Position numbers and translations under genes: made by a program | Shown here: one piece after another, positions 33,529 through 41,083 of the stretch | Numbering within the stretch: the stretch's first letter is position 1 | Layout: each line of letters starts with the position of its first letter | Origin: Bacillota bacterium | Lineage (GTDB): Bacteria > Bacillota > Limnochordia > DTU087 | Length of the DNA stretch: 41,083 nt | Assembly: GCA_012798955.1 (NCBI GenBank) | Contig: JAAZMF010000060.1 | Coordinates: 1 to 41,083, forward strand | Direction of reading: 5' to 3' | The notes under the pieces: model-generated | Database searches by the model: none | What the model saw: only the letters and a program-made list of their open reading frames with translations | What the model was told of the DNA's origin: nothing

Positions 33529-33603
33529 ATATTTGCCAGACGGGATGCAAGTATGGTCCTAGCCACAGTTATCCCAGACAAAAAAGGCAAAGGGGGTGGG
33601 ACA

Positions 33604-33783
33604 TTGTTGGCAATTAGGCAAACGAGACGGGGAGAGGCTGGTCAAGCCCTTCTAGAATATGCATTGGTTATGGCCTGTATCGCCCTTCCTTTGATACTGG
33701 TCGCCGATGGCATGCAAAGGGCTATGGCGAGGTTTCTCCGACACCTTTTAATGACTGTGGCGATATGGCCAATTGGTACTTAG
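33604..33783 (+). CDS. Flp-type prepilin, first copy
   Basis: The peptide contains AGQALLEYALVMACIALPLILVA. G followed by QALLEY fits the Flp prepilin rule G/XXXXEY, so processing would leave a mature pilin of about 43 residues with the hydrophobic assembly helix at its start. TTG 33604 or 33607 after the G-rich stretch GGGGGTGGG is the likely start, giving 58-59 residues. An in-frame ATG at 33553 is upstream but has no visible ribosome binding site. The C-terminal half (MARFLRHLLMTVAIW) is more hydrophobic than in a typical Flp. It may be a minor pilin. Confidence 0.7.
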   Translation: MLAIRQTRRGEAGQALLEYALVMACIALPLILVADGMQRAMARFLRHLLMTVAIWPIGT

Positions 33784-33819: not shown

Positions 33820-33999
33820 ATGGGTCTATTACTCTCCCAGCTATGGACAGACCAGAAAGGTCAGGGCATGGCTGAATACGGATTGTTGACAGCACTAATT
33901 GCCATTGCTGCTTTGGTAGCAGTGAGAACTCTGGGAGAGACACTCAAAGGCAAGTTTGAGGATCTAAATACATCATTGCAGGGCGTTTCAGCAAGATAA
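33820..33999 (+). CDS. flp: Flp-type major prepilin, second copy (59 residues)
   Basis: This very short gene starts at ATG 33820, with AAGGAGGG just upstream, and ends with TAA 33997-33999. The product runs MGLLLSQLWTDQKGQGMAEYG and then LLTALIAIAALVAV. GQGMAEY matches the G/XXXXEY cleavage site of Flp pilins, with Glu at +5 and Tyr at +6. The mature pilin would be about 45 residues, typical for Flp. The strong ribosome binding site and the hairpins after the gene suggest high expression as the major subunit. The prepilin peptidase is the next gene. Confidence 0.9.
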   Translation: MGLLLSQLWTDQKGQGMAEYGLLTALIAIAALVAVRTLGETLKGKFEDLNTSLQGVSAR

Positions 34000-34115: not shown

Positions 34116-34157
34116 CCTTCCTAGCGAACTGATCAAGGCTGGTCAAAGGAGGTGCCC

Positions 34158-34691
34158 ATGAGACTAACGATATCCACAGCATTGTTTCAGGATACATACG
34201 GCATTGAATCTATAAGAAGTTGCATGTTGCTAGGGTTACTGATGGGTTCCATCTATTATGATTTGCGGTTTCGTATCATTCCAAACTGGTTGACTGCTCC
34301 GGGGCTGGTGATGGGCCTATTGATGCTTACCCTTGATGGTGTTAGTGGGTTTTTGCAGGCGGTTTGGTTAGTTTGCTTACTCACATATCCATTCGTTTTC
34401 GGTTTCCAGAGAGGCTGGGTAGGGGGCGGTGATGTTAAGTTGGTTGCGGCGGTTGGCCTTTTGTCAGGACTGGATTTAGCTATACCAATCTTTCTAGCGG
34501 GCACGATCATGGCGGGTGTGTTTAGCTTGTATTGTCTCGCAGGTGCGTCACCTAGGGGCCGTTGGGATGGTCGCAACACCATTGCAGAAAAAGTCTGGAT
34601 CCCGTATGGAGCATGCTATGCGTTGGGAGCACTTGTACTAAAGGGAATTCTTGCCTGGGGATTGATCCCATTGGCGGGTTTGCACAAGTAG
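34158..34691 (+). CDS. cpaA: Tad prepilin peptidase (CpaA/TadV, A24A family)
   Basis: This 177-residue membrane aspartyl protease cleaves Flp and TadE-type prepilins. Both catalytic aspartates are visible: YYDLRFRIIPNWLT near residue 36 and the GGGDVKL motif near residue 90. The protein has about six hydrophobic segments and lacks the methylase domain of PilD-type enzymes, which matches TadV/CpaA. ATG 34158 follows AGGAGG (34147-34152) by 5 bases; an in-frame GTG at 34152 overlaps that site and is rejected. Confidence 0.92.
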   Translation: MRLTISTALFQDTYGIESIRSCMLLGLLMGSIYYDLRFRIIPNWLTAPGLVMGLLMLTLDGVSGFLQAVWLVCLLTYPFVFGFQRGWVGGGDVKLVAAVGLLSGLDLAIPIFLAGTIMAGVFSLYCLAGASPRGRWDGRNTIAEKVWIPYGACYALGALVLKGILAWGLIPLAGLHK

Positions 34692-34708: not shown

Positions 34709-35143
34709 ATGGATGATAAAGGCACGGTGATATTGGAATTCTCTATAATACTTCCGATATTATTCCTTTGTATTTGGGGGATTCTTGCCTTGGCCCTATA
34801 CGTGATTGAGTCCCAAATGCTGCATTTTGCCGCCTATACCGCGGCCCGTGTTGCCATACTGGACACAGATGAGGCAGGTCTAGACTCAGCAGCTGGCTTT
34901 CTGGTAGCGTCTCGGGGGGAGCTAAGCTGGGCATCGGAGGACCTTCGGGGGATTACTGGGCGTAAGCTATCTGTTAACAGGAGGGGGCGACGGGTAGATG
35001 TGGAGATTGGCAGAGAGTCTGACTTACTAAGCAAATTGACCAATTTTCTTGTGGGCAGGGGGCGTTCTAGTGCGCTCATAGTGGATCTTGCCAAGACATT
35101 TCGCCATCAAGAGGTATTTTACTCCATGGGGAGGTCTCGCTAA
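34709..35143 (+). CDS. tadE: TadE-like minor pilin
   Basis: The 144-residue protein begins MDDKGTVILEFSIILPILFL, a short charged leader with Gly before TVILEF, then one hydrophobic helix. This fits TadE-like pseudopilins, which are cut by the same peptidase as Flp. The rest is a soluble extracellular domain with AAYTAARVAIL, the common alanine-rich segment after the helix. ATG 34709 has GGAGGTGGG upstream. Its stop overlaps the next start (TAATG), so the two are coupled. Confidence 0.85.
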   Translation: MDDKGTVILEFSIILPILFLCIWGILALALYVIESQMLHFAAYTAARVAILDTDEAGLDSAAGFLVASRGELSWASEDLRGITGRKLSVNRRGRRVDVEIGRESDLLSKLTNFLVGRGRSSALIVDLAKTFRHQEVFYSMGRSR

Positions 35144-35820
35144 TGGCAGCACATTCTGTGATGGTGGAACTAGCTAGGGAAGACGGTCAAGCCATGATTT
35201 TCCTATTGGTGGCCGCCGGAGTGATTATGGCCTTTGCTTGTGGCTTGTATATTACATCTTCATATCTAGTGGCAAAAATCCAAGCGCAAAATGCTGCCGA
35301 CGCCGCCGCAGTGGCCGGGGCAGGGGCCTTGGCTGACACTTTGGACCTTTTAGTATTTAGCAACTGGGTACGTGGTGCGTCATATTTGGCGGCGGGCTTT
35401 GGAGCGCCCCTGCGGGCAGCAGTAGTTACTGTTGCGCCGTTGGCTGAGAAGAGTGGACCTGCATTGGCCGCCGCCCGTACTGTGGAAGTTGGACTGGCTA
35501 ATGGCGCCATAGCTGTTCCCTTAAACAAGCCTAATCTTGACGTGCGTCAAGGGATCTTTACAGGAATGTATAGGGAACGGATGTGGAATAGGACCAATGG
35601 TAGATACATGCGGGCGAGCACGACTGTTATGCCCGACATACCGGATTGGATAGCTGCACCTTTCCAAGAACACTTGTTTTTGGGGATTGTTCCCCCGGTT
35701 GGTGCTGTGGCGGAGGCCTCCGTTAGCGGTTGGGGATTGGGCCGGGCCCATTTTAAAGGAGTATTGGGTAGGACTCTTCAAATCGGCGGAGGTTTTTTTA
35801 GGAGGCTCTTTGGGTTATAG
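35143..35820 (+). CDS. tadG: TadG-like pilus-associated protein
   Basis: The 225-residue product has REDGQAMIFLLVAAGVIMAF near the N-terminus, then QAQNAADAAAVAGAGALAD. The latter is the NAADAAALAGA pattern typical of the putative Flp pilus-assembly TadE/G-like N-terminal domain. The remaining 150 residues are unlike any domain I recognise and lack the von Willebrand module found in many longer TadG proteins. The start codon overlaps the previous stop by one base. Confidence 0.75.
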   Translation: MAAHSVMVELAREDGQAMIFLLVAAGVIMAFACGLYITSSYLVAKIQAQNAADAAAVAGAGALADTLDLLVFSNWVRGASYLAAGFGAPLRAAVVTVAPLAEKSGPALAAARTVEVGLANGAIAVPLNKPNLDVRQGIFTGMYRERMWNRTNGRYMRASTTVMPDIPDWIAAPFQEHLFLGIVPPVGAVAEASVSGWGLGRAHFKGVLGRTLQIGGGFFRRLFGL

Positions 35821-35858: not shown

Positions 35859-36320
35859 ATGAAGCTGCATCAAGTGATCGGTGGTAACTGTGCATCAGGG
35901 CAAGCCCTGTTGGAGCTAGCACTGATTATGCCGGTACTACTCATCTTGTTCGCGGGTATGATGCAATTGGCCCTTATATGTCAAACCAATCTTCTTGCTC
36001 ACATGGCAGTAAGACATGCTGTGCAGATCTACTGGCAGGGCGGTAGCAAGCGGCAGATTCAATCAGAGGTAGCGGACTATTTTAGGCGTTACCCCTTCAT
36101 GGCTGATCAGAATGTGCAAGTGTCTTGGCGAACCACTTTCCTAAACGAGACAGTGGAAGTAGCGTGTGAGCCACCCATGTTATTTCCCATGGCATGGCTA
36201 GGCAAACCCCCTGTGGTTCGAGCTTCCATGTGTTTAGCTAGGGAGCTATTTAGTCTGAGGCGGATTCCAACATTTTCCGACATTATGAGGTTCGGGGACA
36301 AATTACGAGAAAGCCGGTGA
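35859..36320 (+). CDS. TadE-family minor pilin, second copy
   Basis: The 153-residue protein has the segment CASGQALLELALIMPVLLILF, where G/QALLEL matches the TadE/F cleavage and helix pattern. It continues with AHMAVRHAVQIYWQGG and a soluble domain. It is clearly related in layout to the gene at 34709 but not a close duplicate. ATG 35859 lies after GGGGGTGG. It is 38 bases after tadG and 4 bases before the next gene. Confidence 0.82.
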   Translation: MKLHQVIGGNCASGQALLELALIMPVLLILFAGMMQLALICQTNLLAHMAVRHAVQIYWQGGSKRQIQSEVADYFRRYPFMADQNVQVSWRTTFLNETVEVACEPPMLFPMAWLGKPPVVRASMCLARELFSLRRIPTFSDIMRFGDKLRESR

Positions 36321-36324
36321 TTAT

Positions 36325-37224
36325 ATGGATAGGACAAAAGGCTTAAGAACTCCTGAGCGCTACCTTATCTTTGTTTACATGTTGGCACTTATTTGCCTAG
36401 GGAGTCTGGTAGGGCCTGCTGGATCGGTATACGCCTTACAGCCGCCAACAATTAATCATCCACCACTTTGGGTGTTTCAGGGGCGGCCTGATCCCTTTGC
36501 AGCGGGATGGCTATGGGAAGATGGCGTGTGGTCGCGAATTGAGGAGGGTGAAGTATTCTGGAAAGAGGATGAAGTGCGGGCAGAGCTTGCGAAACGGGGA
36601 TGGGCAGCGATTAGTATTGAAGAAATGGAAACCGAAATGGAGCTAGACGAATCGGGACTCACTGGAGGCATGTTAGAAGCAATTGGTGTGCCCATAATCC
36701 AACGTGGATGGGAAATCAAGGCAAGGCAAGGACCTTGGCGGGCTACGATTAGTGTCAGTAAGCTGGATACCGATGAGGGTGAGCTTTTTGACATCTCACA
36801 CCCCTATGGCGATGTGTATGCCTACTATGCAACCCTGAGCCATGTACCTCCCTTAAAGGCAGATGCTAAGCTTCCTTCCGGGGCAAAATGGAAGCCGGTA
36901 CCCGGTTCAAGCTTAGTTATGGTGAGACTTTATGATCAAACCCTTGTTCGTGGAGGCGCCTATGGTCTAAAAACTCCTTGGTCTTCCCGGGGGATTATTG
37001 ATTACTATGCTAAACATGGTGATTGGGTTTTTTATCCAGCCTTCGATTCCATCGTCATGGGATGTGGTGTGGAACATGGCTCTGTCTACTACATGTATAT
37101 TGAGATGATCCCATCCCACGATGGAGAGACAGTTTATCATGTAGTGGAAACCGGCGACATTCTACGGGACGAATTTCTGTATGAGTATGAGCGGGGGTTT
37201 GAGCACCAAGAAACGGACTGGTGA
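36325..37224 (+). CDS. Secreted protein of unknown function in the Tad locus
   Basis: I do not recognise this 299-residue protein. The N-terminus has a charged start and a hydrophobic stretch (YLIFVYMLALICLGSLVG) ending near VYALQPP, consistent with a signal peptide cleaved around residue 38. The mature part is acidic and rich in Trp, Tyr and Gly, with segments such as LWVFQGRPDPFAAGWLWEDG and VFYPAFDSIVMGCGVEHG, and no further membrane segment. It lies 4 bases after a TadE-type gene and 4 bases before cpaB, so it belongs to the pilus operon. It may be an envelope-located pilus factor, perhaps in the place of TadD-like or pilotin proteins, but that is only inferred from location. Confidence 0.8.
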   Translation: MDRTKGLRTPERYLIFVYMLALICLGSLVGPAGSVYALQPPTINHPPLWVFQGRPDPFAAGWLWEDGVWSRIEEGEVFWKEDEVRAELAKRGWAAISIEEMETEMELDESGLTGGMLEAIGVPIIQRGWEIKARQGPWRATISVSKLDTDEGELFDISHPYGDVYAYYATLSHVPPLKADAKLPSGAKWKPVPGSSLVMVRLYDQTLVRGGAYGLKTPWSSRGIIDYYAKHGDWVFYPAFDSIVMGCGVEHGSVYYMYIEMIPSHDGETVYHVVETGDILRDEFLYEYERGFEHQETDW

Positions 37225-37228
37225 TTAG

Positions 37229-38104
37229 ATGTTTCGACATAGATACTTACTCTTGGCCTTCTTTTTGGCTATCTTGGGCACTTGGCTGACGGGCATATAC
37301 ATTAAGAAACTGGAGCAAGAAGCCTCTGGTCAGGGCTTGCACAGGGAGGTGATTGTAGCTAAGGGTTCGGTGTCAAAGGGAGATAGGTTAGACAACAAAT
37401 TGGTTGATCTGAAAATGTGGCCTATTAACCTGATACCGCAGGGGGCTGTGACTCAGATTGAGGACATTCAAGACAAGTTCACCTCTGTGGATCTTGCCCC
37501 TGGGGAGGTCATTTTCGCAGATCGACTGCTTGAACAGGAAGAGCGAGGCCTTGTCTGGCGGCTAGATGGAGAACAGCGGGCTTTGTCAGTTCCGGTATCA
37601 CGGGTGGAGGGTCTAGAATCAGAACTGAGCCCTGGCACAAAAGTGGATATTCTTGGAACCATAATTGATTATCGTACGGGCATTGAACACAGCCTCATGG
37701 TCTTGGAGAATGTGACTTTGCTGGAACTTGTGACCGAGGTTGACCCCTATGGAGGCTCCATGGGTAAGCAAATGGTGGTCCTAGCCGTTACGCCTTGGCA
37801 GGCCCAGAAGTTGGCCCTATTTGATAGTAGTGGTGGTTTACAGTTGCTCTTGAGGTCGGTCCATTCCACTGAAGAAGGTCTAGATGGCGATAGGGCGCTC
37901 ACCACCCGGGACGTGCTTGGGTATGACGAAGATAACCTGATCTCCAGGGCATCTATTCCTAGACCTGAAGCAGCGGGGTCAATCATTGGGTCTTCGGCCC
38001 ATATCCAGCCTAGTTGGCAGGTGGAAGTTATTAGGGGGACTAGTTCATTTATCGCCACAGATGATTTTCCTGGTAATTGGACCGAGCAAACAAGGGGGAG
38101 GTGA
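37229..38104 (+). CDS. cpaB: CpaB/RcpC Tad pilus assembly protein (SAF domain)
   Basis: The 291-residue protein has one N-terminal membrane segment (YLLLAFFLAILGTWLTGIYI). A SAF domain at about 40-100 contains VIVAKGSVSKGDRLDN and VDLAPGEVIFADRLL. The RcpC-like C-terminal domain has LSVPVSRVEGLESELSPG and VDILGTI. CpaB is an envelope component that works with the CpaC secretin in Tad pilus biogenesis. ATG 37229 is 4 bases after the previous stop. It is followed after 4 bases by the secretin gene. Confidence 0.92.
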   Translation: MFRHRYLLLAFFLAILGTWLTGIYIKKLEQEASGQGLHREVIVAKGSVSKGDRLDNKLVDLKMWPINLIPQGAVTQIEDIQDKFTSVDLAPGEVIFADRLLEQEERGLVWRLDGEQRALSVPVSRVEGLESELSPGTKVDILGTIIDYRTGIEHSLMVLENVTLLELVTEVDPYGGSMGKQMVVLAVTPWQAQKLALFDSSGGLQLLLRSVHSTEEGLDGDRALTTRDVLGYDEDNLISRASIPRPEAAGSIIGSSAHIQPSWQVEVIRGTSSFIATDDFPGNWTEQTRGR

Positions 38105-38108
38105 AGTG

Positions 38109-41060
38109 TTGCCTAGCTCCAAAGTACTGTATCTCCAGACCGGGATAAGAAAGGCACAGGCGAATTTGGAGCGTCATAGACTTTCCAGGGTAGTGATGGT
38201 TATCTTCCTGGGGTTGATAACTTGGCCCTGTGCACAGGGTTCTACACTAGCTTTGGCAGCTCCTAGTATGGCGTTGCCTCTTGGGGAGCATGGGCCCGAT
38301 GACTTGATTTCTTTGTATGCTGGAGAAAGTGTGTTCCAGACGAGAAGTGGCCTTCAGCGGGTTGCAGTGGGCGATCCGGAGATTGCCGATCTTAAGGTCT
38401 TGGGCGAGGATGCCTTTCTCCTTATAGGAGTCAGCGCCGGACGCACGACTTTGATGGTTTGGACAGAACATGGTTTTTCTACAAGTGAGGTAACCGTAAC
38501 TAGTCGCCCACCGGTGGATCTTGAGTATGTGGAAAGGTTGCTTGAGGGGTGGGGGGTGGGGCTTAGTTGGTGGCAGGAGTATCTTGTCATCCAAGGTGTT
38601 GTGTCAAAAGAGGATGAGAAAGAGGCAGTGGCCCATTTGGCTAGGACAATTTGGGAACCGGTGATTGATCTTGTAAGGGTGAGCGACAATGTGGAGCCAT
38701 CCCTAGATGTGGAGACATCGGTGATGGTGGATGAAATCAGAGAGGCACTGAATCTGCCCGGTGTTTGTGTCCAGGTGATTAAGGACTTGGCTATTCTGGA
38801 GGGAACCGTAGATTTCATGACAGAGCAGGTGCGCGCCGGTGAGATCGCCCGCCAGTTTGTACCAGAGGTGCTTAATCTTATTCAGGTGGTGGAACGGTCG
38901 CCACTGGAAGTAGAATTTCTGGAAGTAGCTGCCAGACAGGGTGACCTTGTTGATGAAATGGCCAAAAAGCCGCCCATCACCTTGCAGGATGTTAACTTGC
39001 TCTGCCAAGAGTGGGGTTTTGATCTCAGATGGATAGGTGAGATCCTGTTACTAGAAGGCGTTGACCGGGATCCTAATCGAAAGGCAGCCATTGTAAGTCT
39101 TTTGGAGCTTCTGGATATTTATCATATCGATGCGACTGCTAGAAAGACCGTGTCGGTACTTGATTACCACAATGGGTTAGATGCGTTAAGCAAAACCCTT
39201 GAGGAGCTGCCGGGATTAAGCAATGTTGCAGTTCTCCACAAAGGCAAGCGCTTAATCATAGAAGGCGTTGGTGACCACCCCTCCAAAGTTGCACTAGCAG
39301 AAGCTTTGGCAGAAGATTACGCCAGCTCTCTGGGGCTAGAGGTATTTAGCCTATTGCAGCTTCCTACAGAGGAAGACGGGAGAATTCCCGCAAGATCCAT
39401 TCAGAATCAAATTGGTATCCCTGGACTTGTAGTGCGATGGGTGGGAGAAGACCTAGTGTTGCAAGGTACTTTGCCCCCTGGGGAACATGAGGCCGCCATT
39501 GCTTTGGCAAGTCAGTACAGCTTTCAGGTCATAGATCTAATTGAGGAAGTAGGCCTTACTTCCCTTGTTCTAGCCGATATAGATTCCCTATTGGATATGG
39601 AGGATATTTCGGTGGGGAGAGTGGGTAATACCGTGATTTTGCAGGGCGAAGTCCCGTCAGAAGAACAAAAACGAAGGGCAATGGCTCTAGCGAGTGCTTT
39701 TGGTTACCCAGTTGTGGATGCAATGATGGTGGCCCCTAGAGGTGAAGAGCGTAGTAGGGAGTTGAACATATCTGAAATAGAAACCGCCATTGGGATGGAC
39801 CAAGTTCAAGTAAAGCTAGTCAATGGATTTATCACCCTAGAGGGTGTTGTCAAGAGTCCGCTGGACAAGACTAGGGCCTCGCTTATCGCTGCTACCTTTG
39901 GTGAAGTTATCGATTTGGTTGAAGTAGCCTCTGTGGATGATGATTCGCTAAAAGATGAAGCAGATCATTGGGTGGCTTTGTTGCAGGAAGCAGCAGATCT
40001 GGGGGTTCGCCTATACAAGGTAGGCCAAAGTGTCGTGCTGGAGGGGATGGTGTCCCTCTCAGACGCCAACTATCTAGAGGCTCTTATGGATGGGGAATTT
40101 CCCCATTGGATTAATCGGCTTAGTATATCCGAGGCGCCTGCTGAGCCATTGCCAGCCTTATCTGAGGTGGAGCTCCTCATAGATAATCCCAGCATCTATT
40201 GCAGATACGTGGGAGATGTTTTGGTCATGCAGGGAACAGTCACATCTGAAGATGAAATCCGGAGAGCAGAAGCAGTTGTATCTATTTTTGAAGTTCCAAT
40301 TCATAATCTGTTGGTGGTAAAGGAAGCCAACCCTGAGCAGGTGTGGGTTGATGTATGCATGCTTGAGATCTCCCAGAGTGAAGGCAAGGAAGTGGGGCTA
40401 GACTGGCAGATTGGCCTTGGTAGGCAGGAGGGGGAACATGTTAGTTTGCCCATATACGAGATTGACCAGTGGCCTAGTTCCCCAGGGGCCAATTCCCACG
40501 CGTTCAATATAGTGGTAGGGCCCCTTTGGGCTAGGACAGAGCTACTCAATCTGATGCAGTCTGGAGATGCCCGGATTTTGGCTTCTCCATCCTTGCTTGC
40601 AGAAAATGCCCAGGTAGCCGAATTTCTAGCCGGAGGCGAGATTCCTGTACCTACTGAAGGGAGGATCGAATGGAAGCCCTATGGAGTCGGACTCAAGGTA
40701 CAGCCTACGTTGCGTGACAACGGCGATATCCATCTACAAGTGGAGCCTGAGGTGAGTTCGCTAGATTGGGAAAATGCTGTTCAGCTAGAGGATGCAATTA
40801 TACCAGGTGTTCGCACTCGGAGGTGGAAAACTCAGGCTGCTATCCAACCTGGTAAAGCTCTTGTCATAGGGGGTTTGCTTTCTGAGGAGGATACTAGGCG
40901 GGGCAGACATGTGCCTTTTCTGGGCGAATTGCCGATCTTAGGTACATTATTTCGCAGCGAAAACATAGCCAAACAAAAGACGGATCTAGTCGTTATTGTG
41001 AGTCCCAGATTGTTGCAGGATGATGATCCTCTGTGGACCGATGCATTGCTATCCCGGTAG
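38109..41060 (+). CDS. cpaC: CpaC/RcpA-type secretin with nine BON-like modules
   Basis: The start TTG 38109 lies 7 bases after GGAGG (38097-38101), overlapping the cpaB end; GTG 38106 is the alternative. The product is 983 residues. A hydrophobic N-terminus (about 27-51) is followed by a pilus-secretin N-domain (63-131, with VFQTRSGLQRVAVGDPEIADL). I then count nine modules near 135-190, 207-261, 291-343, 356-415, 429-481, 490-541, 554-607, 621-673 and 685-737. Each has a beta core such as LVIQGVV, LVLQGTL, VILQGEV, ITLEGVV or LVMQGTV, followed by a helix and a VIDLV-like strand. The C-terminal secretin domain spans 744-969, with LASPSLLAENAQVAEFLAGG and VPFLGELPILGTLFR. Secretins form outer-membrane pores; CpaC is the Tad pilus exit channel. 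Usual family members are roughly half this length. Confidence 0.9.
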   Translation: MPSSKVLYLQTGIRKAQANLERHRLSRVVMVIFLGLITWPCAQGSTLALAAPSMALPLGEHGPDDLISLYAGESVFQTRSGLQRVAVGDPEIADLKVLGEDAFLLIGVSAGRTTLMVWTEHGFSTSEVTVTSRPPVDLEYVERLLEGWGVGLSWWQEYLVIQGVVSKEDEKEAVAHLARTIWEPVIDLVRVSDNVEPSLDVETSVMVDEIREALNLPGVCVQVIKDLAILEGTVDFMTEQVRAGEIARQFVPEVLNLIQVVERSPLEVEFLEVAARQGDLVDEMAKKPPITLQDVNLLCQEWGFDLRWIGEILLLEGVDRDPNRKAAIVSLLELLDIYHIDATARKTVSVLDYHNGLDALSKTLEELPGLSNVAVLHKGKRLIIEGVGDHPSKVALAEALAEDYASSLGLEVFSLLQLPTEEDGRIPARSIQNQIGIPGLVVRWVGEDLVLQGTLPPGEHEAAIALASQYSFQVIDLIEEVGLTSLVLADIDSLLDMEDISVGRVGNTVILQGEVPSEEQKRRAMALASAFGYPVVDAMMVAPRGEERSRELNISEIETAIGMDQVQVKLVNGFITLEGVVKSPLDKTRASLIAATFGEVIDLVEVASVDDDSLKDEADHWVALLQEAADLGVRLYKVGQSVVLEGMVSLSDANYLEALMDGEFPHWINRLSISEAPAEPLPALSEVELLIDNPSIYCRYVGDVLVMQGTVTSEDEIRRAEAVVSIFEVPIHNLLVVKEANPEQVWVDVCMLEISQSEGKEVGLDWQIGLGRQEGEHVSLPIYEIDQWPSSPGANSHAFNIVVGPLWARTELLNLMQSGDARILASPSLLAENAQVAEFLAGGEIPVPTEGRIEWKPYGVGLKVQPTLRDNGDIHLQVEPEVSSLDWENAVQLEDAIIPGVRTRRWKTQAAIQPGKALVIGGLLSEEDTRRGRHVPFLGELPILGTLFRSENIAKQKTDLVVIVSPRLLQDDDPLWTDALLSR

Positions 41061-41083
41061 GGTTCCGGGGTTTTGTGTGCAGG

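Follow-up and report, generated by a model that had tools for sequence, protein, structure and literature searches.

The window, the 41,083-nt stretch of DNA analysed here, is the whole of contig C184 of the source genome and ends just 3′ of the gene for a CpaC/RcpA-type Tad secretin of 983 residues. The gene and its two terminal domains lie in the following order within a Tad pilus locus.

33553..33783, + strand: Flp-type pilin 1 (sequence; GQALLEY motif, spotted by eye)
33820..33999, + strand: Flp-type pilin 2 (sequence; GQGMAEY motif, spotted by eye)
34152..34691, + strand: prepilin peptidase, Peptidase_A24, TadV/CpaA type (Pfam, 4.1e-14)
34709..35143, + strand: TadE-like pseudopilin (Pfam, 4.7e-9; likely ATG inside an ORF opening at 34562)
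35143..35820, + strand: TadE/G-like protein (Pfam Tad, 4.2e-6)
35859..36320, + strand: second TadE-like pseudopilin (Pfam, 7.3e-7)
36325..37224, + strand: secreted protein of no recognised family (synteny in the family; no Pfam match; AF2 pLDDT 55)
37229..38104, + strand: CpaB/RcpC alignment-ring protein (NCBIfam TIGR03177, 116 bits)
38109..41060, + strand: CpaC/RcpA Tad secretin, 983 aa (ORF, Pfam domains, AF2)
38307..38495, + strand: pil_N (VirB9-like) N-domain of the secretin, residues 67–129 (Pfam PF13629, 1.3e-13)
40551..41015, + strand: secretin domain, residues 815–969 (Pfam PF00263, 3.3e-40)

The Tad locus and its secretin

The secretin ORF starts with TTG at 38109, with an in-frame GTG at 38106, and stops at 41060; it is preceded by a strong ribosome-binding site, GGGGGAGGTGA, and opens four bases past cpaB. 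The PF00263 and pil_N matches and the Tad gene context identify its product as a CpaC/RcpA-type Tad secretin. The N-domain aligns with those of RcpA and 8jvb, and the secretin domain is 28% identical to that of P. aeruginosa RcpA (PDB 8odn) over the structural match. The protein thus has in common with RcpA and with C. crescentus CpaC the N-terminal pil_N/VirB9-like domain, the C-terminal secretin domain and the Tad neighbourhood, but whereas RcpA has only the N-domain and CpaC possesses a single N3 domain besides (PMC10499894, PMC13170226), nine BON-like modules separate the two ends of the secretin described here.

The last part of the window (40655–41083) overlaps a second contig of the source genome, C62 (8086–8514), over 429 nt at 98.1% identity, suggesting that strain variation within the metagenome bin has split the Tad locus across contigs. 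C62 continues the locus with a fused CpaE-CpaF followed by TadB and TadC. Judged from sequence, the window and C62 together make up a Tad locus that is complete save for a recognisable pilotin; none of the locus genes that were scanned could be assigned to TadD or CpaD. The apparent fusion of CpaE (ParA-like) and CpaF (T2SSE ATPase) is a 731-aa ORF on the minus strand of C62 (5957–8149), downstream of the secretin, and the relative G004 likewise has a 700-aa ORF resembling fused CpaE-CpaF downstream of its secretin. The secreted protein at 36325–37224 carries a VPGS motif and occupies the same position in every family relative checked, while evolving fast (~25% identity). Following the earlier note, it is a putative partner of the secretin.

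Nine BON-like modules and their conservation

From the N-domain, the secretin continues through nine BON-like modules (residues 134–740) to the C-terminal secretin domain. The modules start at residues 134, 205, 290, 352, 424, 486, 552, 617 and 681, giving a mean period of ~68 aa, and each was called from profiles and an AF2 model.

38514..38690, + strand: BON-like module 1
38721..38897, + strand: BON-like module 2
38976..39152, + strand: BON-like module 3
39183..39371, + strand: BON-like module 4 (sequence marginal, model clear)
39384..39554, + strand: BON-like module 5
39564..39737, + strand: BON-like module 6
39762..39935, + strand: BON-like module 7
39963..40136, + strand: BON-like module 8 (lowest on sequence, model clear)
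40155..40328, + strand: BON-like module 9 (where ordinary Tad secretins have their one N3/BON-like domain)

With a leave-one-out profile, seven of the nine modules scored 15–42 bits, compared with at most 9 bits in 500 shuffled regions; modules 4 (11.0 against 9.2 for the best shuffle) and 8 (7.6 against 7.2) were marginal. Profile-profile comparison over ten orthologs ranked them in the same way, with seven modules mutually strong, module 4 moderate, module 8 weak and control segments close to zero. In the AlphaFold2 model, built from a 17-sequence alignment, all nine modules, including 4 and 8, have the order alpha-beta-beta-alpha-beta with core pLDDT of ~75–92. The pTM of this model (0.29) means that it does not inform the mutual placement of the modules, their stacking or ring formation, and the linkers between them are of low confidence, as at residues 277–288 between modules 2 and 3. 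Foldseek matched the modules to the BON proteins OsmY, DolP and BonA and to the ring-building proteins YscD and CdsD, and the whole protein to secretins; these module neighbours share the alpha-beta-beta-alpha-beta fold, but have one to three modules and no secretin fusion. Pfam BON matched the secretin in two stretches (56.9 bits) and, with the modules taken singly, only four of nine at E<=1, so that domain annotation alone would undercount them.

An earlier note made from the DNA letters had claimed nine BON-like repeats with a period of roughly 69 residues and had proposed structure prediction and a BON profile search as checks. The repeat positions, profiles, AF2 model and Foldseek matches bear out both the count and, closely, the period, and the predicted monomer contains nine consecutive folds rather than one or two. 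The profile search came out mixed: the Pfam profile recovers fewer than half of the single modules and the custom profile is clear for all except modules 4 and 8.

Identity between modules inside the secretin is just 14–35%. This divergence, together with same-position orthologs in relatives, rules out a recent tandem duplication or an assembly artefact as the origin of the array. All ten family relatives have an ortholog of the secretin, with nine modules in nine of them and eight in the remaining one. When modules were matched position by position in five relatives from different genera, 44 of 45 best matches fell at the same position, and the nine-module array is kept at ~50% identity across genera. 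This positional orthology argues that the array is ancient and kept by selection. The source genome has another Tad locus, which also encodes a long secretin, with eight detected modules and a 721-aa spacer (N-domain end to secretin-domain start), and across the source family this second locus has eight detectable modules and spacers of 700–730 aa. Just downstream of it in the source genome (C153, 1579–5016, minus strand) lies a gene whose product (1146 aa) combines beta-helix/NosD and FlgD Ig-like domains and may, going by these, be a secreted adhesin.

Across the phylum, Tad secretins contain from 1 to 12 such modules: twelve in family f3, seven in f7, four to six in f64, f128, f17 and f2, and one to two in f40, f54, f118 and further families. 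The same module profile found no module at E<0.01 in the reversed sequences of 181 proteins, and none or one in named proteobacterial Tad secretins. The earlier statement that ordinary CpaC/RcpA proteins carry very few such units therefore stands. Its companion, that the length is unusual, holds against those proteins and at the level of the phylum, with its spread of 1 to 12, but not within the family, where eight or nine modules are the rule. A search of the open-access literature for multi-BON Tad secretins gave one paper, in which Tad secretins are credited with just one BON domain; no paper came up that treats BON domains of secretins from Firmicutes, or Tad pili of Limnochordia. The variation from 1 to 12 modules thus seems to be unreported so far, perhaps because domain annotation misses modules, and the secretin of the window is a well-conserved long variant that is ordinary in its own family and apparently undescribed.

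Envelope type, the coiled-coil strut and secretin length

The source genome encodes Omp85/BamA with POTRA domains, LpxD, an OmpH-like protein and LptF/G, and an outer membrane is visible in thin sections of Limnochordia members (PMC11456536); the host is a diderm, LPS-bearing member of the Bacillota, its class probably being Limnochordia. A short (~400 aa) STN/Secretin_N secretin is also encoded in this genome, implying that a secretin can do without a long tail in this envelope.

A gene on contig C46 (3062–4600) encodes a protein with an SLH domain (7.3e-8), a coiled coil of ~390 aa and a C-terminal hydrophobic anchor. The coiled coil comprises 387 residues with one proline, and its heptad periodicity is pronounced (z=6.2). 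By this architecture, the protein is an Omp-alpha-like strut, predicted to connect outer membrane and peptidoglycan and to span the periplasm. Thermotoga Omp-alpha, which is a periplasmic rod of 45–50 nm (PMC9388160, PMC5082667), similarly has an SLH domain, a long coiled coil and a C-terminal transmembrane anchor; it belongs to another phylum, and the strut described here has ~390 coiled-coil residues. An OmpM porin was also considered as envelope ruler and was rejected, the SLH candidate in the source genome being an Omp-alpha-like rod without a barrel. Homologs of the strut turned up in every one of the 43 genomes of a first search and in 11 of 18 added later; the first set includes two genomes without this Tad secretin, which argues that the strut is not a part of the pilus. 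Over the whole phylum, the shortest homolog has 218 aa and the longest 1490 aa. Giant struts of ~743–1457 aa, counted from the SLH domain, occur on G031:C130, G028:C15, G014:C68 and G140:C223, and that of G031 has internal repeats.

In 48 genomes, strut length correlates with the length of the secretin spacer (Spearman 0.73 by genome). Over 18 families the coefficient is 0.69 (permutation P 0.00085), in the 12 families outside the class of the window it is 0.94, and within family f64, in which two genera differ together, it is 0.87. The test was exploratory and unplanned. For frameshifted secretins (G031, G140, G227 and one of G330), the spacer length is an estimate made after the frames had been joined, and with intact ORFs only the family-level coefficient drops to 0.54. 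Independent contrasts, calculated on a secretin-domain tree and not a species tree, gave 0.31 with all tips and 0.64 without struts of >700 aa, a cut picked after the data were seen. In the class to which the window belongs, no such correlation is seen (0.15 by genome, −0.43 by family) because families f5 and f11 pair giant struts (798–1457 aa) with mostly short secretins; G014 and G028, for instance, have struts of 798 and 1394 aa beside one-module Tad secretins. A control with CpaB length in 18 genomes gave 0.04 with strut and −0.64 with spacer length, but is uninformative since spacer and strut are themselves unrelated in those genomes (0.09). For the suggestion in the earlier note that the secretin is a conduit across a wide periplasm, the outcome is divided: the Omp-alpha-like strut and the length correlation agree with it, while the clear exceptions and the failure in its own class do not.

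A model for the long secretin

Altogether, we favour, with modest confidence, a model whereby the module stack forms a pilus channel over a wide periplasm and the number of modules is loosely fitted to the width of the envelope. In this model, the secretin subunits would form a ring of ~12–14, as in RcpA/CpaC, and the terminal N-domain would dock at the inner membrane on the CpaB/RcpC ring, as in Pseudomonas, where the CpaB homolog RcpC is an inner-membrane-anchored dodecamer that binds the RcpA N-domain (PMC12307814). The nine modules would be stacked as rings, or would at any rate make a regular sleeve, from the N-domain to the outer-membrane barrel; assuming 2.5–3 nm per ring, this stack would be roughly 23–27 nm long and could guide the pilus over the wide periplasm. 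The SLH/coiled-coil strut would keep the periplasm wide, its ~390 coiled-coil residues corresponding to near 57 nm if continuous, and a longer secretin may be one answer to a rod of this length. Evolution would then adjust the number of modules to the envelope width. RcpA by itself is too short for the periplasm (PMC12307814), and the Caulobacter Tad machine narrows the gap between the membranes from 53 nm to about 33 nm (PMC13170226). A parallel in working is PilQ of Thermus thermophilus, in which several stacked N-domain rings have been proposed to cross a wide periplasm (PMC5745081). PilQ is a type IVa and not a Tad secretin, its N0–N5 rings are of the beta-alpha-beta-beta-alpha type, and it has six of them, compared with a putative nine plus the N-domain here.

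In the main alternative, the modules would form a flexible string of BON domains with equal reach, acting as a loose tether or as peptidoglycan- or lipid-binding beads that anchor the gate in the envelope. We regard this as unlikely but worth serious attention: the AF2 model fixes no geometry between modules and is of low confidence in their linkers, the N-domains of secretins are often flexible, that of RcpA for this reason being unresolved in cryo-EM (PMC10499894), and DolP, a BON protein, binds phospholipid according to the title of its PDB entry (7a2d). Against it, the fold neighbours include the ring-building type III secretion proteins YscD and CdsD, the N-domains of known secretins stack as rings (PMC5745081), and both the number and the order of the modules are conserved. 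The length correlation does not separate such a string from a ring stack, as a tether could equally be matched to width. It does bear on the idea that module number merely drifts through duplication and loss in each lineage, with no functional fit to the envelope. Counts that run from 1 to 12 and differ between families, together with the exceptions G014 and G028 and the lack of a relation within the class, are what drift would leave behind; yet the array is kept in position across genera at about half identity, and the correlation persists in independent contrasts and within f64, making drift improbable as the explanation.

That the long sleeve is a specialised device for export, gating or selectivity, and not a width spacer, we consider very improbable. 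The conserved secreted protein of the locus could be read in this way, but the pilins, CpaB and the genes for motor and platform are what an ordinary Tad machine has, and no cargo gene was recognised. The channel across a thick Gram-positive peptidoglycan, as raised in the earlier note, is almost certainly wrong: only phylum affiliation speaks for it, whereas secretins require an outer membrane, and the encoded BamA, LpxD and LptF/G as well as the diderm nature of the class (PMC11456536) contradict it.

Extending the preferred model of a ring stack fitted to the envelope, we tentatively propose, as a rather doubtful generalisation, that in diderm Bacillota the number of rings in the Tad secretin, one from the N-domain and 1 to 12 from BON modules, has evolved hand in hand with the length of the Omp-alpha-type strut, which would set the spacing of the outer membrane. 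If so, few known secretin channels would match the 9- and 12-module forms in length, and a series of 1 to 12 modules alongside an independent rod of readable length would make envelope width predictable from sequence alone. Such a natural series would allow one to ask whether the number of secretin N-domains is tuned to envelope width, and thereby bears on the question of how the channel of a pilus machine stays unbroken in envelopes of differing width.
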